A stretch of DNA of 64,000 nt from Synechococcus sp. CBW1107 (GCF_015841355.1 NZ_CP064908.1:248001-312000), one strand, 5' to 3'; positions 52,037-63,237 are shown, counted from the first letter of the stretch. Notes: a model not told the origin generated them from the letters alone. Numbers and translations: made by a program.

Positions 52037-52197
52037 CGGGCCTTGGCACCGGAGGCTGCAGGGCGGGCGGAAGCGCCGGGTGGGTAGGCGCTTCAGCCGC
52101 AGGACCCCGATCGCCATCCTCCCGTGCGGCCGGCCAGGCCGGGCGATCGGTCACGGCACTCGCCAGGGTGGAGGCCGATCCGCCAGGGCCGCCCTCC

Positions 52198-53865
52198 ATG
52201 CGCGACTTCTGCGCCCTCTATGAGCAGCTCGATCGCAGCCCCGGCACGACGGCCCGGGTGTCGGCCCTGGAGGCCTATCTGCGCGCGGTCGATCCCGCCG
52301 ACGGGGCCTGGGCGCTCTCCCTGCTGCTGGGCAAGCGGCGCAGGCGGCTGATCACCGGCCGGCGGCTTCGGGAGATCGCCCTGGCCGCCTCGGCCCTGCC
52401 GGAATGGCTGTTCGATGACTGCCATGCCCAGGTGGGCGACAGCGCCGAAACGATCGCCCTGTTGCTGCCGCAGCTGACGCTGCCTGAGGCGGAGCTGATC
52501 GAGCGGCCCCTGGCGGAATGGATGGGTGAGCGGCTGCCGGCGATCGCGGCGCTGGAGCCTGCCGCCCAGGCCCGGGCCGTGCTGGAGGCCTGGGCCTCCC
52601 TTCCCGCAGGCCAGGCGTTCCTGTTCAACAAGCTGCTCACCGGGGGCCTGCGGGTGGGGGTCTCCACGGGGCTGGTCACCCGGGCCCTGGCGCGGGTGGC
52701 GGGGCTCGAGGAGGCCGAAATCGCCCAGCGGCTGATGGGGGGCTTCGAGCCGACGGCCGACGCCTTCCGCAACCTGCTCGCCCCTGCGGCGGCAGGGGCG
52801 GCGGCGCCGGCGAGCCGCCCCTTCCCGTTCTTCCTGGCCAGCCCTCTCGATCCGGCCCAGCTGGAGAGCTGGGATCCCAGCCACTGGCGGGCGGAGTGGA
52901 AGTGGGACGGCATCCGCGGCCAGCTGATCCGCCGCGCCGGCGGCAGCTTTCTCTGGAGCCGCGGCGAGGAGCTGGTGAACGAGAGTTTTCCCGAACTGGT
53001 GAGCCTGGGGGAGGCCCTGCCGGAGGGCACCGTCCTCGACGGCGAAGTGATCGTCTGGAACCCCGGCGAGAAGCGACCCGAGGGCTTCGCGGCCCTGCAG
53101 CGACGGCTGGGGCGCAGGAGCGTGGGAGCGGCCCTGCGCCGCCAGTGCCCGATGGCCTTCGTGGCCTACGACCTGCTCGAATCGGGTGGCGCCGACCGGC
53201 GCGACGAACCGCTGCGCCAGCGGCTGGAGCGCCTGGCGGAGCTGTGTGCTGTCGTGGCCGGGGGCGATCACCCCGAGCGGCAGCGCCTGCGCGGCTCGGC
53301 GGCCGTACCCATGACCAGCTGGGAGGAGCTGGAGCGGCAGCGCGGTCGCGCCCGCGAGGTGGGGGCCGAGGGACTGATGCTCAAACGGCTGGAGTCCCCC
53401 TACAGGGCCGGCCGCCGCCGGGGCGACTGGTGGAAGCACAAGCTCGAACCGCTCCACCTCGATGCGGTGCTGCTCTACGCCCAGGCCGGCAGCGGCCGCC
53501 GCGCCAACCTCCACACCGATTACACCTTCGGGATCTGGAGCCGCCCACCGGGATCAGCCGGCGCGGAACCCCAGCTGATGACCTTCGCCAAGGCCTACTC
53601 AGGACTCGATGATGCCGAGATCGCCGAGCTCGACCGCTGGATCCGCCGCCACACCACCGAGCGCTTCGGTCCGGTGCGGGCAGTGGAACCCCTGCAGGTG
53701 TTCGAGCTGGCCTTCGAAGGGCTGCAACCCTCGAAACGTCACAAGAGCGGCCTGGCGGTGCGCTTCCCGCGCATCGCCCGCTGGCGCCGCGACAAACCGG
53801 CGGCGGAAGCCGACAGCCTCGCCACGGCCCTCAGGCTGCTGGAGGGGATCAGCCCCCCGGGCTGA
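52198..53865 (+). CDS. ATP-dependent DNA ligase
   Basis: The enzyme seals DNA nicks using ATP; this is additional to the usual NAD-dependent ligase. The 555-residue protein has an N-terminal DNA-binding domain (FNKLLTGGLRVGVSTGLVTR), the nucleotidyl-transfer Lys in EWKWDGIRGQL (Lys235), TVLDGEVIVW, EGLMLKRLESPY and the WWKHKLEP motif. An OB domain follows. It is of the type that accompanies an MBL exonuclease and an Lhr-like helicase in DNA-damage sets. The ATG at 52198 is preferred over a GTG at 52168. The stop overlaps the convergent DUF4178 gene by 17 bases. Confidence 0.93.
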   Translation: MRDFCALYEQLDRSPGTTARVSALEAYLRAVDPADGAWALSLLLGKRRRRLITGRRLREIALAASALPEWLFDDCHAQVGDSAETIALLLPQLTLPEAELIERPLAEWMGERLPAIAALEPAAQARAVLEAWASLPAGQAFLFNKLLTGGLRVGVSTGLVTRALARVAGLEEAEIAQRLMGGFEPTADAFRNLLAPAAAGAAAPASRPFPFFLASPLDPAQLESWDPSHWRAEWKWDGIRGQLIRRAGGSFLWSRGEELVNESFPELVSLGEALPEGTVLDGEVIVWNPGEKRPEGFAALQRRLGRRSVGAALRRQCPMAFVAYDLLESGGADRRDEPLRQRLERLAELCAVVAGGDHPERQRLRGSAAVPMTSWEELERQRGRAREVGAEGLMLKRLESPYRAGRRRGDWWKHKLEPLHLDAVLLYAQAGSGRRANLHTDYTFGIWSRPPGSAGAEPQLMTFAKAYSGLDDAEIAELDRWIRRHTTERFGPVRAVEPLQVFELAFEGLQPSKRHKSGLAVRFPRIARWRRDKPAAEADSLATALRLLEGISPPG

Positions 53866-54514
53866 GGGTCCTGTACACCGAACGACCATCCCCCGGCAGC
53901 AGCACCAGGGACGCGGGATCCAGCTGACGGCCAAGGGTCACTTCCGCCTCCGCCTCCGCGGGCTCGAGCTCAGAGCCAGGGGCCGGGGGGCGGGATCCCG
54001 GGCTGCCCCCATCCCAGCGCTCCAGGGACAGCACCAGGCCCTCGGGTCCCTCGTAATCGCCGAAGCGGCAGCCGCTCAGCCGCCGGTTCATGGTGCGGGA
54101 GGTGGAGCTCACCGCCGCGCGGCCCTGTTCCCTGAGCCGGTAGGTGACCCCCTCCCAGGTGATCGTCGCCGGGAAGGGCAGGGGCTGACGATCCAGCTGG
54201 CGGGCCAGCTCATCCGGGCCCCGCTCCAGCCAGCTCACCTCCAGCCAGTCGTCTTCACAGACGCAGAGCCAGCGGCCCTCGCTGCCATCGCGCACCAGAT
54301 ACTCGAGCCACTGAAAACCCTCCTCGTCGTAGAGCAGGCGGTCTTCCACGACCCAGTCGCGGCCTTCGGCCTGGACGATGTCACCTGTGCGCAGGTCGAA
54401 GAGCGTGCGCTCCTGGGGCAGGGCCGCCGGGGGCCGGCGTCGCTTCTGCCGCTCGCGCAGGACCCACGCCGCCACCAGCAGCAGCACCAGCAGAACCCAG
54501 ACGCCCATGGGCAC
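53849..54514 (-). CDS. DUF4178-domain protein with N-terminal membrane helix
   Basis: The 221-residue protein starts with one helix (MGVWVLLVLLLVAAWVL). The DUF4178 pattern follows: FDLRTGDIVQAEGRDWVVED, EGFQWLEYLVRDG and WLCVCEDDWLEVSWLE. DUF4178 genes cluster with DUF350, aminopropyltransferase and PspA genes in many bacteria, all present here within 7 kb. It is 62 bases downstream of the aminopropyltransferase on the same strand. Confidence 0.85.
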   Translation of the reverse strand: MPMGVWVLLVLLLVAAWVLRERQKRRRPPAALPQERTLFDLRTGDIVQAEGRDWVVEDRLLYDEEGFQWLEYLVRDGSEGRWLCVCEDDWLEVSWLERGPDELARQLDRQPLPFPATITWEGVTYRLREQGRAAVSSTSRTMNRRLSGCRFGDYEGPEGLVLSLERWDGGSPGSRPPAPGSELEPAEAEAEVTLGRQLDPASLVLLPGDGRSVYRTLSPGG

Positions 54515-54576
54515 GGCTTCGGCCCGGAGCCCGTCGTCCGGAGAGGTTCAGCCTATCGAGCGGGGCCGGGCGGGAC

Positions 54577-56109
54577 TCAGTCCTGCCGCCAGAGGGACTG
54601 GCGCTGGTAGCCATCCAGCACCGGCCGCGACAGACGGTTGGGCAGCACGAGCGCATCGCGTGGCGGGCGCAGATCCCGGGGCAGCAGGAACAGCCGCTCC
54701 AGCTGGGCCCGATCGAACCAGCGGCCCTCGAAGGGCAGGGCACCGGCCTGGAGGCGCTGGCCCCGGCGGTGGGCCAGCACGAACCCCCAGGGCCCGAAAC
54801 TGGGCACATCGACGCTGTAGGGCCGCGCCACCAGGCCCAGTTCGGCCAGGGTGGCCTGGATCGAGGCCATCACCTTGGGGGTGAAGAACGGTGTTGAGGC
54901 CTGCGTCACCAGCAGGCCGCCGGGCGCCAGCCGCCCCAGCAGGCGCCCATAGAACGTGACGCTGTAGAGCCTTGCCAGAGCCGGGCTCTCAGGATCCGGG
55001 AAATCGGCGATCACCACGTCGTAGGGGCCCGGCAGACGACGCACCAGCTCGAAGGCATCCCCGACGTGCGTCCTGACCCGCGGGTCGTCAAGGCTGGCCT
55101 TGTTCAGGCGCCGCAGGACGGGATGGGCCCTGGCCAGCTGCAGCATCTGCAGATCCAGCTCCACCAGATCGAGACGGCGCACCCCCGGCCAGCGCAGGAT
55201 CTCCCGTGCCGCCAGGCCATCGCCCGCCCCCAGCAGCAGCACCCGCTCAGGCCGCCCGTGCAGGGCCAGGGCCGGATGCACCAGCGCCTCGTGGTAGCGG
55301 TATTCATCCAGGCTCGAGAACTGCAGGTTCCCATCGAGGAACAGCCGCAGATCGCCGCGGCGGCTGGTGAGCACGATGCGCTGATGGCGCGACTGCACCC
55401 GCCCCACCACCGGATCGTCGTAGAGGCCATCCTCGATCCGGTTGCCGAGGGGCACCAGCGCCCAGGCCGCCAGAGCGGCCAGGGGAAGGGCCGCGCTCAC
55501 CGGCCAGCGCCAGCGGCGGCAACCGGGAAACACCCAGCACAGCACCGCGCTGCTGATCAGGGGCATCATCGCCAGCAGACCAGCGGTGGGCAGCAGGCCG
55601 AACCACGGCAGCAGCAGCAGCGGAAACAGCAGGGACCCCAGCAGGGCTCCGAGGTAATCCAGGGCCAGCACCCGGGCCAGGGCTTGGCGCAGGTGCTGCT
55701 GGCTCTCCAGCAACCGGGTGAGCAGGGGCACCTCCATGCCCCCCAGCACCCCCACCAGCACGGTCACCACCACCAGGGCCAGCCAGAGCGGGCCATCGAC
55801 ACTGAACAGAGCGAACAGCGCCAGCGGCCCCAGCAGGCAGAGTGGAGAGAGGCAGAGCTCCACCAGCAGAAACGCGTTCAGGAGCCGCTGCTGGGGCCGC
55901 ACACCACCGCCGACGAACTGACTCAGCCAGGCCCCCAGCCCCATGGCCGCCAGGAAGGTGCCGATCACCATCCCCGTGGCCAGGGCCACATCGCCAAGCA
56001 GATAGCTCGCCTGGGTGACAAGCATCAGCTCCAGCACCAGCCCCACGCTTGAGGAGAGCGCGGCGGTGGCCAGCAGCACCCGCACCTGCAGCGGCGAGAG
56101 GGGCGGCAT
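54577..56109 (-). CDS. membrane-bound polyamine aminopropyltransferase (spermidine-synthase-like)
   Basis: The first ~220 of 510 residues hold about seven hydrophobic segments (VRVLLATAALSSSVGLVLEL onward). The rest is a spermidine-synthase-like domain with FSSLDEYRYHEALVHPA, LLLGAGDGLAAREILRW, VELDLQML and DVVIADFPDP. It would transfer aminopropyl groups from decarboxylated S-adenosylmethionine to a membrane-near acceptor. The membrane part and clustering with DUF350/DUF4178 separate it from housekeeping SpeE. It follows a small gene by 2 bases, so an operon is likely. Confidence 0.9.
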   Translation of the reverse strand: MPPLSPLQVRVLLATAALSSSVGLVLELMLVTQASYLLGDVALATGMVIGTFLAAMGLGAWLSQFVGGGVRPQQRLLNAFLLVELCLSPLCLLGPLALFALFSVDGPLWLALVVVTVLVGVLGGMEVPLLTRLLESQQHLRQALARVLALDYLGALLGSLLFPLLLLPWFGLLPTAGLLAMMPLISSAVLCWVFPGCRRWRWPVSAALPLAALAAWALVPLGNRIEDGLYDDPVVGRVQSRHQRIVLTSRRGDLRLFLDGNLQFSSLDEYRYHEALVHPALALHGRPERVLLLGAGDGLAAREILRWPGVRRLDLVELDLQMLQLARAHPVLRRLNKASLDDPRVRTHVGDAFELVRRLPGPYDVVIADFPDPESPALARLYSVTFYGRLLGRLAPGGLLVTQASTPFFTPKVMASIQATLAELGLVARPYSVDVPSFGPWGFVLAHRRGQRLQAGALPFEGRWFDRAQLERLFLLPRDLRPPRDALVLPNRLSRPVLDGYQRQSLWRQD

Positions 56110-56111
56110 GG

Positions 56112-56342
56112 CTACTTGGCCGTCCCGGGGCCCCGCCCCTGGAATCCAGGCCAGCTGGAGCGACCGCTTCGGGGCACCCAGACGCCGCCCCGGTAGCTGC
56201 CGCGGTAACTCACCCCACTGGATCCGGACGGCACCCCCTCCTGCCCCAGTCGGAACAGGAAGGGCCGGCTGACCGCGGTGACCGTGCCCACCGTCACCGC
56301 CGAGAGAGTGAGCACCAGGATCAACGTGCGCTCGAGGGCCAT
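56112..56342 (-). CDS. small exported or membrane protein of the DUF350/aminopropyltransferase cluster
   Basis: The 76-residue protein has one hydrophobic N-terminal segment (TLILVLTLSAVTVGTVTAV). A Gly/Ser/Arg-rich tail follows with a GSSGVSYRGSYRGGVW stretch. Its position between two cluster genes with 1-2 base gaps supports it. It may correspond to the small DUF4247-like component in related clusters, but similarity was not recognised directly. Confidence 0.6.
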   Translation of the reverse strand: MALERTLILVLTLSAVTVGTVTAVSRPFLFRLGQEGVPSGSSGVSYRGSYRGGVWVPRSGRSSWPGFQGRGPGTAK

Positions 56343-56343
56343 C

Positions 56344-57390
56344 TCAGGCCTCCAGCGTCAGCACAGCCACCGGGTGGGGACTGAGCACGCCGTCCTCCAG
56401 CACCAGCCGCATCCACTCGATCTCCCAGGGCTCACCACCATCGGCGATGGTTTCAGGCAGCGTCAGCCGCAACCCCAGGCTGGCGGGCTCCTCCACCCTG
56501 AGATGGAGCACCTCCTCCACCGTCAGCCAGTGGTCACCGTCGCTGGAGTGGGCCGCCACCGGCAAGACCCGCTTGAAGTCCAGGCGCGAGCGGCCGAGGG
56601 CATCGCTCACCTCCAGCTGCAGCTCCGCCTGCAACCGGGGGGAGTGGGGACCGGCGTCGCTGGAGGGACGCTCATAGCGGGCCCGCACCTCGACACGCAC
56701 CAGGCCAGCTCCTCCAAGACGGCAGCGCAGATGCACACGGTTGTCCTCCAGGCGCAGCACCTTGCGCAGGCGCCAGTTGCGATAGATGGAGCTCATGGCG
56801 ATCCCCGCCATCAGCAGCGTCACCAGGGCGGTGAACCAGAGCAGCGGGGCGTCGACGCTGTGGTTGCGCACCTCCAGCCGCAGCAGCAGGGGGCTCTCCA
56901 GGGGCCTGCCGGCCGTGTCGAGCAGATCCTCGAGCGTGAGCCGCAGCCGGTACAACCCCGAACCCGGCGGCCGCAGCGACAGCCGCAGCCCGTCGTCGCT
57001 CTCCTCCCAGCGGCCGCTCTCCCCCCCCTCCGACCAGGTGCCGGACTCGCGCCAGCCATCCTTCGCCAGCTCCAGCACGGTGGCGCCGCCGGCGTCGAGC
57101 AGCTCCACCCCCAGCCCCATCGAGCTGTTCACGGGCAGCTCGGCCCGCAGCTGGATCAGCGGGCTGCCGAACCAGCCCGAGTCCAGGCGCAGGGGTTCGC
57201 TGGTGCTCGACTCCTCCGGCACCACCGCGATCTGCTGGCGCTGGGGCCGCTCCAGCATAGAGATCAGCAGGACCAGCAGAGGGATGAGGGGCAACAGCCA
57301 GAGCAGCAGGGGCCAGCGCCGCACAGAGGCCGAAGCGGGCCCGGCACCGGACCGCTCCTTAGCCTGAAGGGCGCTTCGGGATGCCGCCAT
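56344..57390 (-). CDS. membrane protein with large beta-rich domain, aminopropyltransferase cluster
   Basis: From the ATG at 57390 the product has 348 residues. A first helix (LLLWLLPLIPLLVLLISML, ~27-46) is followed by a beta-rich domain (LRLDSGWFGSPLIQLRAELP to LRLEVRNHS), a second helix (WFTALVTLLMAGIAMSSIY) and a second beta domain ending HPVAVLTLEA. The predicted domain placement is outside the cytoplasm for the first beta part. The ATG overlaps the divergent DUF350 start in a CATG; a GTG at 57324 just before the first helix may be the real start. No family name is known to me. Confidence 0.7.
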   Translation of the reverse strand: MAASRSALQAKERSGAGPASASVRRWPLLLWLLPLIPLLVLLISMLERPQRQQIAVVPEESSTSEPLRLDSGWFGSPLIQLRAELPVNSSMGLGVELLDAGGATVLELAKDGWRESGTWSEGGESGRWEESDDGLRLSLRPPGSGLYRLRLTLEDLLDTAGRPLESPLLLRLEVRNHSVDAPLLWFTALVTLLMAGIAMSSIYRNWRLRKVLRLEDNRVHLRCRLGGAGLVRVEVRARYERPSSDAGPHSPRLQAELQLEVSDALGRSRLDFKRVLPVAAHSSDGDHWLTVEEVLHLRVEEPASLGLRLTLPETIADGGEPWEIEWMRLVLEDGVLSPHPVAVLTLEA

Positions 57391-57598
57391 GGTCAAACCC
57401 CTGCTCCAGCTCCTGCTGACGGTCGGGTGGACCGTCGTCGGGGTCATCCTCATCTATGCGGGCCTGCTGCTGTTCGACAAGCTCTCCCCGATCGACTACC
57501 GCTCCGAGATCCGCAAGGGCAACGTGGCGGCCGGCGTGGTGCTGGGGGCCGTGATCCTGGCCATCGCCGCGGTGGTGGTGGGCATCCTCACCACCTGA
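57389..57598 (+). CDS. DUF350 membrane protein
   Basis: The 69-residue product has two helices (LLQLLLTVGWTVVGVILIYA, AAGVVLGAVILAIAAVVVGI) separated by DKLSPIDYRSEIRKGNVA, the typical DUF350 half. DUF350 is linked to PspA and to polyamine/peptide ligase or aminopropyltransferase genes in published comparative surveys of PspA partners. It is divergent from the cluster on the left and 16 bases before the helicase. Confidence 0.85.
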   Translation: MVKPLLQLLLTVGWTVVGVILIYAGLLLFDKLSPIDYRSEIRKGNVAAGVVLGAVILAIAAVVVGILTT

Positions 57599-57614
57599 TC
57601 CGGACCCCCCTGCC

Positions 57615-60155
57615 TTGGCCACGCAGCCCGTTGCCCTCGAGCCGATCGAGGCCTGGTTCCGCCGCAAGGGCTGGCGGCCTCTTCCCTTTCAGCGCCAGTG
57701 CTGGAAGGCCTACCTGCGCGGGCGGAACGGGCTGATCCAGGTGCCCACCGGCGCCGGCAAGACCTATGCGGCGGTGATGGGACCGATCGCCGCGATGCTG
57801 GCGAATCCAGAACCGGGCCTGCGCCTGCTCTATCTCACACCCCTGCGTGCCCTCAGCCGCGATCTGGCCCTGGCAATCCGCGAGCCGATCGAGACCATGG
57901 GCTGGCCGCTGACGCTGGGCATCCGCAACGGCGACACCGCCAGCAGCGAACGCAGCCGTCAGCTCAGGCAGCCGCCCCAGATCCTGATCACCACGCCGGA
58001 ATCGCTCTCGGTGCTGCTGGCGAACCGGGCGGCTCCGCAGCTGTTCGCGGGCCTCGACGCGGTGGTGCTGGATGAATGGCACGAGCTGATGGGCAGCAAG
58101 CGCGGCAGCCAGACGGAGCTGGCCCTGAGCTGGCTGCGGGGCCATCGCCCCGGCCTGCGCACCTGGGCGATCAGCGCCACCATCGGCAATCTGGAGGAGG
58201 CCGCCCGGGCAGCGGTGGGGGTTGGGGCGACAGAGGACCCCCTGCTGGTGCGGGCGCGGGTGCGACGGGGCACGGAGATCCGCAGCCTGCTGCCGGAGTC
58301 GATCGATGGCTTTCCCTGGGGCGGTCACCTGGGCCTGCGCATGTACGAGGAGCTGGTGGCGGCCCTCGATCCAGCCATCTCCACGCTGATCTTCACCAAC
58401 ACGCGCAATCAGTCGGAGCGCTGGCATCAATGCCTCCGCTACGCCTGCCCGGAGATGGAGGGGGCCCTGGCCCTGCACCACGGCTCGATCGACAGGGCCG
58501 AGCGCGAGGCGATCGAGGCGGGCGTGAAGGCGGGTGACGTGCGCTGGGTGGTCTGCACCAGCGCCCTGGATCTGGGGGTCGACTTCCAGCCGGTGGAGCG
58601 GGTGGTGCAGATCGGCAGTGCCAAGAACCTGGCGCGGCTGCTGCAGCGGGCCGGCCGCTCAGCCCACACCCCCGGCGGTACCTCCCAGGTGCTGTTCATG
58701 CCCACCAATGCGCTGGAGCTGCTGGAGGTGTCGGCGATGCGGCGGGGGCTGGAGGAAGGGCTGGTGGAAACCCGCCGGCCGCCGGCGGCGCCACTGGACG
58801 TGCTGCTGCAGCACCTCACCAGCCTGGCCTGCGGCCCGGGTTTCGATCCGGATCTGGAGCTGGAGCGGGTGCGCAGCAGCTGGAGCTACCGCCACCTCGA
58901 TGGGGCCAGCTGGCAGTGGTGCCTGCGCTTCCTGGAGCACGGCGGCGACTGCCTCGGCGCCTACCCCCGCTTCCGCAAGCTGGAACGCGATCCGTGCGCG
59001 GCAGCAACATCCACGCCGAAGGCGTCTTTTCTCTACAAGGTCAGGGATCCCGCCATCGCCCGCCTGCACCGGCTGGGAATCGGCACGATCACCTCCAGCA
59101 GCTCCATCAGCGTCAAGGTGGTGCGCGGCGCCACCCTCGGCCATGTGGAGGAGGGGTTCGTGTCACGGCTGAGACCCGGTGATGTGTTCTTCTTCGCCGG
59201 GCGGCAGCTGGAGTTCGTGCGGCTGCGGGACATGACCGCCCTGGTGAAGGCCAGCACCCGCAAGAGCCGCATGGTGCCCGCCTGGGCCGGGGGTCAGATG
59301 GCCCTCTCCGATCTGCTCAGCGTGCATCTGCGCCGCGAGGTGCACCGCTGTGCCGGTGCGATCCAGGCCGGCGATCCGGCGGCAGCCGCGGCAGGCGGAG
59401 GCGCCGATCAGCAGCTCGACACGGCCGAACTGCGGGCTCTCGAGCCGCTGCTGCGCCGTCAGGCCCTCCTCTCGCGCCTGCCCCGGGAGGATCAGTTCCT
59501 GGTGGAGGTGACCCGCAGCCGCGAGGGCAGCCACCTGTTCGCCTACCCCTTCGAGGGACGCTTCGTGCACGAAGGGCTGGGCTTCCTCTGGGCCGGGCGG
59601 CTCACCCGGATTCAGTCGGCGACGATCACGGTGTCGGTGAACGATTACGGCTTCGAGCTGCTGGCCCCCCGCGGCTATCCCTTCGAAGCGCTCTACGAGG
59701 CCTGGAGCGAGGCGCTGCTCGACCAGACGGACCTCGAAGCGGACCTGGAGGCCTCGATCAACCTCTCCGAGCTCTGCCGCCGACGCTTCCGGTCGATCGC
59801 CCAGATTGCCGGCCTGGTGGTGAACGGCTTCCCGGGGCAGAAGAAGAGCGGCAGCCAGCTGCAGATCAGCGCCGCCCTGCTCTTCGATGTCTTCAGCCGC
59901 CATGAACCCGGCAACCGCCTGCTGGAGCAGGCCCGCCGCGAGGTGATGGATGAGCAGCTGGAACTGGGCCGCCTGCGCCAGGCCCTGGAGCGACTCAGCC
60001 GCGCCCAGCGCCTGCTGGAACGCACTCCACGACCGGGACCCTTCGCCTTCCCCCTGCTGGTGGAACGCCTCAACAACCGCATGAGCAGCGAGTCGGTGCT
60101 GGAGCGGGTGCAGCGGCTGGTGGCTGAGGCCAGAACAGCCGAAGACGACGGTTGA
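57615..60155 (+). CDS. ligase-associated DEXH-box helicase (Lhr-like)
   Basis: The 846-residue SF2 helicase has Walker A at 44-50 (PTGAGKT), motif Ia LYLTPLRALSRDL, DEWH at 153-156, SAT at 187-189, motif V CTSALDLGVDFQPVERV and motif VI LLQRAGRSAHTPGG. The C-terminal Lhr-type region includes VEVTRSREGSHLFAYPFEGR and NDYGFELLAPRGYPF. The family is known as the helicase partner of the ATP-dependent ligase and MBL exonuclease in DNA-damage response. The start is TTG at 57615, 16 bases after DUF350. Confidence 0.94.
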   Translation: MATQPVALEPIEAWFRRKGWRPLPFQRQCWKAYLRGRNGLIQVPTGAGKTYAAVMGPIAAMLANPEPGLRLLYLTPLRALSRDLALAIREPIETMGWPLTLGIRNGDTASSERSRQLRQPPQILITTPESLSVLLANRAAPQLFAGLDAVVLDEWHELMGSKRGSQTELALSWLRGHRPGLRTWAISATIGNLEEAARAAVGVGATEDPLLVRARVRRGTEIRSLLPESIDGFPWGGHLGLRMYEELVAALDPAISTLIFTNTRNQSERWHQCLRYACPEMEGALALHHGSIDRAEREAIEAGVKAGDVRWVVCTSALDLGVDFQPVERVVQIGSAKNLARLLQRAGRSAHTPGGTSQVLFMPTNALELLEVSAMRRGLEEGLVETRRPPAAPLDVLLQHLTSLACGPGFDPDLELERVRSSWSYRHLDGASWQWCLRFLEHGGDCLGAYPRFRKLERDPCAAATSTPKASFLYKVRDPAIARLHRLGIGTITSSSSISVKVVRGATLGHVEEGFVSRLRPGDVFFFAGRQLEFVRLRDMTALVKASTRKSRMVPAWAGGQMALSDLLSVHLRREVHRCAGAIQAGDPAAAAAGGGADQQLDTAELRALEPLLRRQALLSRLPREDQFLVEVTRSREGSHLFAYPFEGRFVHEGLGFLWAGRLTRIQSATITVSVNDYGFELLAPRGYPFEALYEAWSEALLDQTDLEADLEASINLSELCRRRFRSIAQIAGLVVNGFPGQKKSGSQLQISAALLFDVFSRHEPGNRLLEQARREVMDEQLELGRLRQALERLSRAQRLLERTPRPGPFAFPLLVERLNNRMSSESVLERVQRLVAEARTAEDDG

Positions 60156-60261
60156 CGGTCTCCGTTCAATGAACGCTGCTGACGTTCCCCCTGGGCAGCT
60201 GGAGAAGATCGGGCGCCATCCCTAGCCTGAGCGCGATCACTCCATCGCACACAGGCCTGCT

Positions 60262-60978
60262 GTGAAGTCATTCATCTACTGGTTGATGGGCGATCGGGCC
60301 GGACGGGTGGTGGTGGGGAGCTGGCGCTGGCTGTGGGGCCTGCCGGTGGAATCCGGCGGCAAGGTGGCCGTCGCGGTGGCCGAGGAATCGCTGCAGTCGA
60401 TGCAGGAATCGGTGCAGAAGCTGGCGAAGGCCGTGGCCATGCAGGTGGGCGCCTACGAGCGGGCCAAGAAGAAGTACCAGGAGAAGACCATCGAGCTGGG
60501 CAACTTCGAGCAGCAGGCCCTGCTGGCGCAGAAGACCGGTCAGGAGGACGGAGCGAAGCTGGCGATGGGTCGTGCCATTCAGATCGAGAAGCTGCTGCCG
60601 GCGCTGGAGCAGCAGGTGCAGCAGGCCGAGGCTTTCGTGACCGCGTCCAAGGACAAGCTGAACCGGGAGCGCCTCAAGCTCGAGCGCTACAAGAGCGACA
60701 TGCAGAACATGAAGGATCTGGCGGAGGTGAACGCAGCGCTCGAATCGATCGCCCAGGTCAACAACGAGTTCGACATCGGCTCGGCCCGCTCGTCCTTCGA
60801 GGCCGCCCGCAGTGCCGTGGAAGGCCGCCACCTGCGCAGCACCGCCCTGGCGGAACTCTCCGAGAACCCCCAGGAGAAGTTGACGGCGGATCTCGAGCAG
60901 CTCTCGCTCGATGCCGAGGTGGCCCAGCGACTCCAGGCCCTTGAAGCCGCGACTCAGCCGAAACCTCAGCAGCCATGA
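60262..60978 (+). CDS. PspA/IM30-family protein
   Basis: The 238-residue product is almost wholly helical coiled coil from about residue 35 to 180 (ESLQSMQESVQKLAKAVAMQ, KKYQEKTIELGNFEQQALLA, RAIQIEKLLPALEQQVQQAE). A short amphipathic N-terminal part (SFIYWLMGDRAGRVVVGSWR) fits membrane binding. The domain is PspA/IM30-like, an ESCRT-III relative that guards membranes, but a diverged member rather than Vipp1 itself. The gene starts with GTG and its stop overlaps the next gene by 4 bases. Confidence 0.8.
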   Translation: MKSFIYWLMGDRAGRVVVGSWRWLWGLPVESGGKVAVAVAEESLQSMQESVQKLAKAVAMQVGAYERAKKKYQEKTIELGNFEQQALLAQKTGQEDGAKLAMGRAIQIEKLLPALEQQVQQAEAFVTASKDKLNRERLKLERYKSDMQNMKDLAEVNAALESIAQVNNEFDIGSARSSFEAARSAVEGRHLRSTALAELSENPQEKLTADLEQLSLDAEVAQRLQALEAATQPKPQQP

Positions 60979-61928
60979 ACGTCCGGAACTCCACAGGCCA
61001 GCGCAGCGGCCCGCCGCCGATCGTGTTCATCCTGCTGGCCCTGGTCGGGGCCGGTGCCCTCTGGACCTGGAGGGACCAGGTCGGCGGCCTGCTGGGCACC
61101 AGCCCCAGGCTGCCCAGCCTCCCCCAGGCCCCGCCGGGCATCCCCGGACTTCCGGGCCAGGGGCCGACGGCGGCGGCTTTTCCACCGCCCGCGAACGTGG
61201 CCGCGGGCACCGCCATCAGCATCGACGGCTCCACCAGCATGGTCCTGATCAATGAGGCCCTCAAGCAGGGCTTCATGGCCGCCTTCCCCGGGACGGAGGT
61301 GAGCACAGCGGCGGTGGGCACCGACAACGGCATCCAGGCCCTGCTGGGGGGCAGCATCAGCCTCGCGGCGATCTCCCGACCACTCACCACTGAGGAGCAG
61401 GGCCTCGGCCTGGTGGCCGTACCCGTGGCCAGCGACCGGATCGCCCTGGTGGTGGGCCTCGACAACCCCTTCCGCCGCGGCCTTTCCCGCAGCCAGACGG
61501 TCCAGATCTTCAGGGGTGAGATCACCAGCTGGAGCACCCTGGGGGGCAGCGATCGTCCGATCCGGGTCCTCAACCGCCCCAGCGTCAGCGGCACCCATGC
61601 CGCGTTCCGCAAGATCGTGCTTGACGGCCAGCCCTTCGGCAGCAGCCCGAACATCACCACACTCGAGCGCGACGCCACCACGCCGATGCTGCGCCTGCTC
61701 GGCCGTGATGGGATCGGCTATGCCACCTACGCCCAGGTGGCCGACCAACAGACGGTGCGGGTGCTCGCCATCGATGGAGCCACCCCGGAAGCGGAGTCCT
61801 ACCCCTTCCAGCGCCAGTTGTTCTACGTCTATCGCGAGCCCGCCTCGGAGGCCGTGAAGGCCTTCCTCGGCTTCGCTCTCTCTCCGCAGGGAAGGGCCGT
61901 CATCCAGAACGCCGGCAAGGGCCCCTGA
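60975..61928 (+). CDS. PstS-like periplasmic substrate-binding protein
   Basis: The 317-residue product has a membrane anchor (PPIVFILLALVGAGALWTW), a Pro-rich linker (~40-75) and a PBP-like domain: ISIDGSTSMVLINEALKQGF, VGTDNGIQALLGGSISLAAI, IFRGEITSWSTLGG and RPSVSGTHAAFRKIVL. These are phosphate-binding-protein features, but no ABC transporter genes are nearby, and the protein stays anchored. The start overlaps the PspA stop (ATGA), so the two are co-translated and probably work together. Confidence 0.85.
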   Translation: MNVRNSTGQRSGPPPIVFILLALVGAGALWTWRDQVGGLLGTSPRLPSLPQAPPGIPGLPGQGPTAAAFPPPANVAAGTAISIDGSTSMVLINEALKQGFMAAFPGTEVSTAAVGTDNGIQALLGGSISLAAISRPLTTEEQGLGLVAVPVASDRIALVVGLDNPFRRGLSRSQTVQIFRGEITSWSTLGGSDRPIRVLNRPSVSGTHAAFRKIVLDGQPFGSSPNITTLERDATTPMLRLLGRDGIGYATYAQVADQQTVRVLAIDGATPEAESYPFQRQLFYVYREPASEAVKAFLGFALSPQGRAVIQNAGKGP

Positions 61929-61980: not shown

Positions 61981-63237
61981 ATGACCATGGTGATCACCCT
62001 TCAGCTGCTCCAGGCGGCGGGTTGGCTGGCGGCCTTCGCTCTGCTGGTGCTGCTGCTGGCGCTGGAGTTCACCATGGGGCGTGCACCGCGCCTGGGGGCC
62101 ACGGAACTCACCCCCGCGAGCCCCTCCACGGGCGCCGCTGAGGCCGGCGGCGGCGATTTCCTCAGCGTGATCGTGCCGGCCTACAACGAGGCGACCAGGA
62201 TCAACGACTGCGTGGGCGCGTTGCTGGCGAGCGACCTGCAGGGTCTGAGCTGGCGCCTGATCGTGGCTGACGATGACTCCAGCGACGGCACCGCCGAGGG
62301 GTTGGACGCACTCATCGCGGCCGGAACGTTCCCATCGCCGCCCCTGGAGGTGATGCGCTGCGGGCCCCGTCCAGCGGGCGAGCGCTGGAATGGCAAGACC
62401 TGGCCGTGCAGTGAAGCGGTACGACGGCTGCCCCATCCCCCCACTCCCGAAGCGGGCCCACCCCCGACGGAGTGGCTGCTGTTCGTGGATGCCGATGTGA
62501 CCGTGGCGCCGGCGGCCCTCACCAGCGCCGTGGCCGAGGCCCGCCGCAGCGGGGCCGATCTGCTCACCCTCGCGCCACGGATCCGCTGCGGCTGCCTGGC
62601 CGAGTGGGTGGTGCAGCCGATCGTGGTGGCGCTGCTGGGTCTGGGCTTTCCGATCGCCCGCGCCAACGATCCCGGCGACCCCACCGCCTTCGCTGCAGGC
62701 CCGTTCATGCTGTTTCGTCGCTCCAGCTACGAGGCCATCGGCGGGCACCGGGCTCTGGCGGCGGAGGTGGTGGAGGATCTGGCCCTGGCGCGGGCGATCA
62801 AGCAGCGGGGATTCCGCCTGCGTTACCTGCTCGGCATCGACCTGCTGGAGCTGCGCATGTACCCCGATTTCAAGGCGCTCTGGGAGGGCTGGACCAAGAA
62901 CTGGCATCTGGGCCTGAACCGCAACCCTCTGCTCACCCTGGCCAGTGGTGCCGTGGTGTTCGGCCTGTTCAGCGGTCCCTGGCTGCTGCTGCCGCTGGCG
63001 TGTCTGCAGCTGATTCAGCAGCCGTCCGACTGGCCGTCACTGCTCACGCCGGCCCTGACGGGAGTGGCTCTGCAACTGGCGGTCAGGCTCTGGAGCCGCT
63101 GGCGTTTCGGACTGGGGCTGCGCCACTGGTGGCTGGCCTGGCTGGGTGGTGTGGTGATCGCCGCGATTGCTCCGGTGTCGATCTGGAAAACCAGCACCGG
63201 CCGGGGCTGGACCTGGCGGGGTCGCTCGCTGGCCTGA
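61981..63237 (+). CDS. family 2 glycosyltransferase, CruG/HpnB-like
   Basis: A first membrane helix (WLAAFALLVLLLALEF) precedes the GT2 domain: FLSVIVPAYNEATRINDCVG, LIVADDDSSDGTAEGL, the metal-binding FVDADVTVAPAAL and an acceptor-side EVVEDLALARAIKQRGFRLR. Three C-terminal helices follow (~315-400). The layout resembles hopanoid-linked HpnB and the cyanobacterial carotenoid glycosyltransferase CruG; the sugar acceptor is probably a lipid. The start lies 52 bases after the PstS-like gene. Confidence 0.85.
   Translation: MTMVITLQLLQAAGWLAAFALLVLLLALEFTMGRAPRLGATELTPASPSTGAAEAGGGDFLSVIVPAYNEATRINDCVGALLASDLQGLSWRLIVADDDSSDGTAEGLDALIAAGTFPSPPLEVMRCGPRPAGERWNGKTWPCSEAVRRLPHPPTPEAGPPPTEWLLFVDADVTVAPAALTSAVAEARRSGADLLTLAPRIRCGCLAEWVVQPIVVALLGLGFPIARANDPGDPTAFAAGPFMLFRRSSYEAIGGHRALAAEVVEDLALARAIKQRGFRLRYLLGIDLLELRMYPDFKALWEGWTKNWHLGLNRNPLLTLASGAVVFGLFSGPWLLLPLACLQLIQQPSDWPSLLTPALTGVALQLAVRLWSRWRFGLGLRHWWLAWLGGVVIAAIAPVSIWKTSTGRGWTWRGRSLA

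Follow-up and report, generated by a model that had tools for sequence, protein, structure and literature searches.

Within a 64,000-nucleotide stretch (NZ_CP064908.1:248001-312000, hereafter the window) of the complete 3.2 Mb genome of Synechococcus sp. CBW1107, a Cyanobium/Synechococcus-type cyanobacterium, five genes form a core unit of envelope proteins, in which the gene of a small membrane protein (DUF350) is divergent from those of a beta-rich membrane protein (B348), a 76-residue exported protein (p76), an aminopropyltransferase carrying seven transmembrane (TM) helices (7TM-SpeE or membrane SpeE) and a DUF4178 protein. The last residue of p76 is a lysine, and proteins ending in lysine were found at membrane-SpeE loci of at least 13 bacterial phyla (as judged from the record titles), a constancy suggesting that the terminal lysine is what the enzyme modifies. 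The proposal that membrane SpeE aminopropylates this lysine at the expense of decarboxylated S-adenosylmethionine (dcAdoMet), so that the core would be an inner-membrane protein-modification device, is given slightly less than an even chance.

The candidate acceptor p76 (56112..56342, minus strand) consists of an N-terminal hydrophobic segment and a Gly-rich tail ending with GFQGRGPGTAK. The sequence and the alignment identify the codon of the terminal lysine as AAG (56115..56117, minus strand), which precedes the TAG stop (56112-56114), and G48, G71 and K76 are the sole invariant columns among 18 aligned p76 homologues. The wider family was explored with a phylum survey and with 80 named loci drawn from the SpeE alignment, which are the best-scoring ones and are not phylogenetically independent; they contain DUF4178 in 73 cases, DUF350 in 60 and a B348-type ectodomain in 54. 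A Lys-ending protein, either exported, anchored or fused to DUF4178, is present in 74 of the 75 named loci that carry DUF4178 or DUF350 (61 by an automatic test and 13 by eye) and in none of the five that lack both. Among open reading frames (ORFs) with an N-terminal TM segment found within 1.3 kb upstream of SpeE, 59/104 end in lysine versus 23/529 unrelated control ORFs, and the automatic criterion gave 96 positives out of 117 membrane-SpeE loci versus 4/117 on the opposite strand. Control loci of soluble SpeE showed a terminal-Lys neighbour in one case out of 35. Plasmid records, which were tested once the rule had been formed, yielded a Lys-ending protein in all seven complete operons combining membrane SpeE with DUF4178 or DUF350, including a 48-residue annotated protein of Novosphingobium and a 510-residue lipoprotein of Alteromonas, and at none of the four loci with soluble SpeE.

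The carriers of the lysine are unrelated in sequence: they comprise short p76-like TM proteins, DUF4247 lipoproteins and DUF4178 fusions with the lysine at their very end (Rhizobacter, Coriobacteriaceae). Examples of the tails are ...GGGPRVGK in Granulosicoccaceae, ...RYFGGK in Acidobacteria, ...SRFYHK in Spirosoma, ...RTLRGK in Gemmatimonas and ...GGGISFGK in Tepidibacter. A Solitalea locus (L177) encodes two Lys-ending proteins and has DUF350, DUF4178 and the beta domain in duplicate.

The membrane SpeE (54577..56109, minus strand) matches Spermine_synth (PF01564, 116 bits) and NF002956 (536 bits, above the curated cut-off of 472). The AlphaFold2 model (predicted local distance difference test, pLDDT, 88.5) contains the seven helices and a catalytic domain resembling the aminopropyltransferases in the PDB (24-32% identity), with retention of both the fold and the catalytic residues. 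Indeed, Q263, DE, YHE, GxGDG, D369xPDP and Y382 are kept in 90-91 of 91 proteins. Furthermore, speD lies inside the operon at two plasmid loci, those of Novosphingobium and Alteromonas, the genome of the window encodes SpeD as well as a separate soluble SpeE, and the side chain of lysine is an aminobutyl group, i.e. putrescine-like. With an intact active site, speD in operons and a putrescine-like lysine, the simplest reading would be the addition of an aminopropyl group to the terminal lysine.

According to this scheme, p76 would be made as a small membrane-anchored protein exposing its Gly-rich tail and C-terminal lysine outside; 7TM-SpeE would move the 3-aminopropyl group of dcAdoMet onto the amine of the terminal lysine, leaving the protein with a terminal N6-(3-aminopropyl)lysine, chemically comparable to hypusine. 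B348 and the DUF4178 protein may together span the membrane as a scaffold or sensor by which the substrate is presented or controlled, and DUF350 may be a small membrane subunit, possibly needed for donor delivery, with a physiological role of the whole perhaps in envelope stabilization or stress sensing. The counts of lysine plus arginine alternate along SpeE, placing loops 2, 4 and 6 inside together with the N-terminus, from which, by the positive-inside rule, the catalytic domain is predicted outside the cytoplasmic membrane, on the same (outer) side as the predicted Lys tails. The full version of the proposal, namely an unrecognized bacterial modification in which dedicated proteins, exported or membrane-anchored, are aminopropylated on their C-terminal lysine by an extracytoplasmic active site, with DUF4178, B348 and DUF350 as partners and with the assembly carrying dcAdoMet across the membrane, is more tentative, and we place it distinctly below an even chance. 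The polyamine-independent role of membrane-fused SpeE and of an operon-borne AdoMet decarboxylase has been open, and the terminal lysine reduces the question to one mass spectrometry experiment. If the lysine is modified, a new protein modification would be at hand, and DUF4178, DUF350, DUF4247 and the B348 family would acquire a function at once.

Several points weigh against this proposal. dcAdoMet is known as a cytosolic metabolite and is not known to be present outside, where the catalytic domain is predicted; either DUF350 or the 7TM domain carries the donor across, or the predicted topology is wrong, or the enzyme has another activity. The invariance of RYHE and D[VLI]RLF[LI]DG[ND] was in part ascertained by the scan patterns themselves. 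Locus L123 has DUF4178 and membrane SpeE, and no Lys tail was found in it; conversely, L097-L099 encode a small Lys-ending protein beside DUF4178 (and DUF350 in L098 and L099), with no adjacent membrane SpeE found. The terminal lysine could also be a binding or sorting signal. Finally, the loci are interrelated and p-values overstate their independence; the spread of the lysine over sequence-unrelated carriers is an argument that does not depend on p-values. The genome of L098 (G124) contains a SpeE-like gene elsewhere (C35).

Among the alternatives, membrane SpeE may synthesize a free polyamine, either at the membrane or across it; the Lys-ending protein would then be a regulatory subunit, with its terminal lysine occupying the polyamine pocket in the manner of a pseudo-substrate or gate. 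The canonical active-site residues are kept, and the name of the NF002956 family is polyamine aminopropyltransferase. However, this genome encodes a separate soluble SpeE, just upstream of an agmatinase-like ORF, and a terminal lysine on unrelated carriers is no less compatible with a reacting group than with a gate; this explanation is considered unlikely. Alternatively, the terminal lysine may be joined to peptidoglycan, as the C-terminal lysine of Braun lipoprotein (Lpp) is by L,D-transpeptidases, or may serve in sorting or binding, with SpeE acting on something else. Such a role fits those carriers that are lipoproteins or contain lipobox-like motifs (L126, L103, Desulfoscipio L189, Alteromonas); many others, however, are TM-anchored, a scan of the 80 loci for L,D-transpeptidase motifs returned one match, probably spurious, and the lysine tracks the SpeE/DUF4178/DUF350 loci and not those of soluble SpeE. 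Overall, linkage to peptidoglycan or sorting appears quite improbable.

In Cyanobiaceae, B348 is present in 23 of 121 genomes, DUF4178 in exactly the same 23, and the remaining 98 have neither. The distribution is patchy (8/34 genera), which implies repeated gains or losses of the core. Each of the 22 relatives examined has DUF350 divergent from B348, with SpeE and DUF4178 after B348, and p76 is located between B348 and SpeE, also in L048, whose divergent p76 was unmatched by the first search. Thus, the DUF350, DUF4178, membrane aminopropyltransferase, beta-rich and 76-residue proteins, grouped by the initial annotation as one candidate system, co-occur as a conserved unit beyond this genome, as the neighbourhood survey of relatives demonstrates; the lack of co-occurrence elsewhere, which that annotation had named as a refutation, was therefore not observed.

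DUF350 (57389..57598, plus strand; PF03994, 49.5 bits) is a membrane protein of 69 residues and the DUF4178 protein (53849..54514, minus strand; PF13785, 104.7 bits) has an N-terminal TM helix followed by RERQKRRR, so that its DUF4178 domain is probably cytoplasmic. B348 and p76 had no family match in profile searches. For B348, a start at 57390 overlaps the ATG of DUF350 (CATG, on opposite strands), and it is probably miscalled because the relatives align from approximately residue 20 and the model leaves residues 1-19 disordered; the GTG at 57324 is likelier, leading to a gene at 56344..57324 (minus strand). The AlphaFold2 model (pLDDT 90.5) describes a TM helix, an extracytoplasmic beta-sandwich, a second TM helix and a cytoplasmic beta-sandwich. 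A fold search with the ectodomain returned TMED1 (Z 10.1 over 99 residues) and other jelly-rolls (Z 8-9), i.e. solely generic jelly-roll/GOLD-like matches with no functional hint. In several phyla (L175, L170, L164) a single protein combines DUF4178, a TM helix, a B348-type beta domain and another TM helix, in some cases with an N-terminal zinc-ribbon-like CxxC pair. From these fusions, B348 corresponds to a widespread DUF4178 neighbour in its split, cyanobacterial version, to which a cytoplasmic beta domain has been added. A restriction of B348 to cyanobacteria, which had also been considered, is ruled out by the B348-type ectodomains and fusions of other phyla; similarly, the 348- and 76-residue proteins, which in the initial annotation looked like new parts, turned out in the survey of other phyla to be cyanobacterial versions of widespread ones. 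Nostocales-type DUF4178 operons (L101-L110, e.g. L104:6134-7597) contain a distant SpeE-like protein that lacks the 7TM domain, and no terminal-Lys partner was found in them; some also feature a FemAB-like protein after the SpeE-like gene (L109) and a DUF350 with eight TM helices.

The model of Ravi et al. is that of a PspA-centred membrane-dynamics system, in which the polyamine level or aminopropylation changes membrane structure. In its favour are PspA-bearing operons (L103, L105, L112, L141, L159, L167 and L189; see also PMC11237479) and, in the window, a PspA-PstS pair just past the helicase gene that follows DUF350. The PspA/IM30 protein (60262..60978, plus strand) is a divergent member of its family (PF04012, 44.5 bits, above the gathering score of 33.9), and it overlaps by four nucleotides (60975/60978), as originally noticed, with an anchored PstS-like periplasmic-binding protein (60975..61928, plus strand; PF12849, 120 bits, threshold met; TIGR02136, 131.8 bits, under the cut-off of 206.6). 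A PstS-like gene also follows PspA in L029, L031, L035, L041, L042, L045 and L050. A close PspA orthologue was found in eight of the 121 genomes, corresponding to 7 of the 23 core genomes and 1 of the 98 others (Fisher p 2.7e-5, with kinship between genomes ignored), and in those seven it is always downstream of the helicase. However, PspA is absent from the other 16 core genomes, the ligase-helicase-PspA-PstS series is present without the core in genome G033, and a PspA match was obtained in only 6 of the 80 named loci, in five of them upstream in the operon. Therefore, PspA is ruled out as a member of the core: the PspA-PstS pair shares its genomic site, and is optional and separable. The idea that PspA guards the unit is not supported by the same counts, and the PspA-centred model as a whole ranks a little below the peptidoglycan one and is improbable as well. 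In L051 (G030) a stop-containing fragment of the same PspA was identified as a pseudogene remnant.

As to the polyamine modification of a membrane lipid or protein that the initial annotation envisaged, the protein branch is favoured, with p76 as the candidate acceptor; aminopropylation of a lipid head group, with p76 as a cofactor, would suit a membrane-embedded enzyme but leaves the terminal lysine unexplained in a core whose only conceivable lipid-handling domain is a generic beta-sandwich, and is very improbable.

With respect to the surroundings of the unit, all of the ORFs initially listed were found in place by the ORF check and their assignments to DUF4178, aminopropyltransferase, DUF350, PspA and periplasmic-binding protein families were upheld by profile searches, although the list omitted two genes, that of the ligase beside DUF4178 and that of the helicase separating DUF350 from PspA. 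The ATP-dependent DNA ligase (52168..53865, plus strand; TIGR04120, 567 bits) and the ligase-associated DEXH helicase of 846 residues (57615..60155, plus strand; TIGR04121, 1030 bits) flank the five envelope genes and form a ligase-associated DNA-repair cassette; in most of the Cyanobiaceae that carry the core, the envelope operon interrupts this cassette. A functional tie between core and cassette is not required because the helicase is found in many core-less genomes and the core is present without a nearby ligase or helicase in L033, L044 and L046; thus, core and cassette are related by location only, the latter bracketing the former. An HpnB/CruG-like glycosyltransferase (both scores below cut-off) is encoded directly after the PstS-like gene (window 61981-63237) and is kept there in several relatives.

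Among known systems, the PspA-CesT/Tir operons are those that share 7TM-SpeE, DUF350 and DUF4178 in one neighbourhood. Ravi et al. (2024) reported SpeE-7TM together with DUF350, DUF4178, PspA and a lipoprotein, and already raised the possibility that other substrates are aminopropylated; their main text makes no mention of a lysine (PMC11237479), and a full-text literature search for DUF4178 returned no other paper. The window differs from these operons in that no CesT/Tir-like ORF is present among its annotated core and flanking genes, PspA is outside the unit, DUF350 is 69 residues long and divergent, and B348 carries an additional beta domain on the cytoplasmic side; p76 or B348 could be the counterpart of the Ctha_1186 lipoprotein. 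In gut-type relatives among Cyanobacteriota a J-domain protein is encoded upstream of PspA in the place of CesT/Tir (L103:6530-6916, L105:6283-6663). The terminal-Lys rule and lysine aminopropylation had no match in the full-text literature search, the scope of which did not include Li 2019 and Pederick 2023. What is new is, thus, the rule with its candidate acceptor, the PspA-free cyanobacterial form and the DUF4178-B348 fusions.

Bacillota have DUF4247-DUF350-SpeE operons, in which the DUF4247 proteins of L189 and L173 have a Gly-rich tail finishing with GK, but the lysine sits on a lipoprotein or secreted protein that is larger than p76 and distinct from it. Soluble SpeE shares the catalytic fold and the active-site residues with the membrane enzyme and differs by the absence of the seven TM helices and of the terminal-Lys neighbour. 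In hypusine/deoxyhypusine formation on eIF5A, deoxyhypusine synthase uses the aminobutyl group of spermidine. As in the present proposal, a polyamine-derived group ends up on the lysine of a single dedicated protein, but in eIF5A the group is aminobutyl, the lysine internal and the process cytosolic. E. coli YgiBC and YjfIJKLMC feature an exported partner with a fixed C-terminus beside a polyamine-attaching enzyme, and the yjf operon also contains DUF350 and a PspA protein. YgiC and YjfC have been reported as peptide-spermidine ligases, as the title of a reference in PMC12568646 has it, and the adjacent DUF1190 proteins YgiB (L193:745-1416) and YjfM (L194:4888-5526) both end in Gly-Gly, which may be the ligation site. 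In contrast with 7TM-SpeE, these enzymes are ATP-grasp ligases, presumably acting on the C-terminal carboxylate, are not dcAdoMet-dependent and are accompanied by neither DUF4178 nor 7TM-SpeE. With neighbours whose Gly-Gly end fits ligation through the carboxylate, YgiC and YjfC are the closest precedent for the proposed protein aminopropylation.

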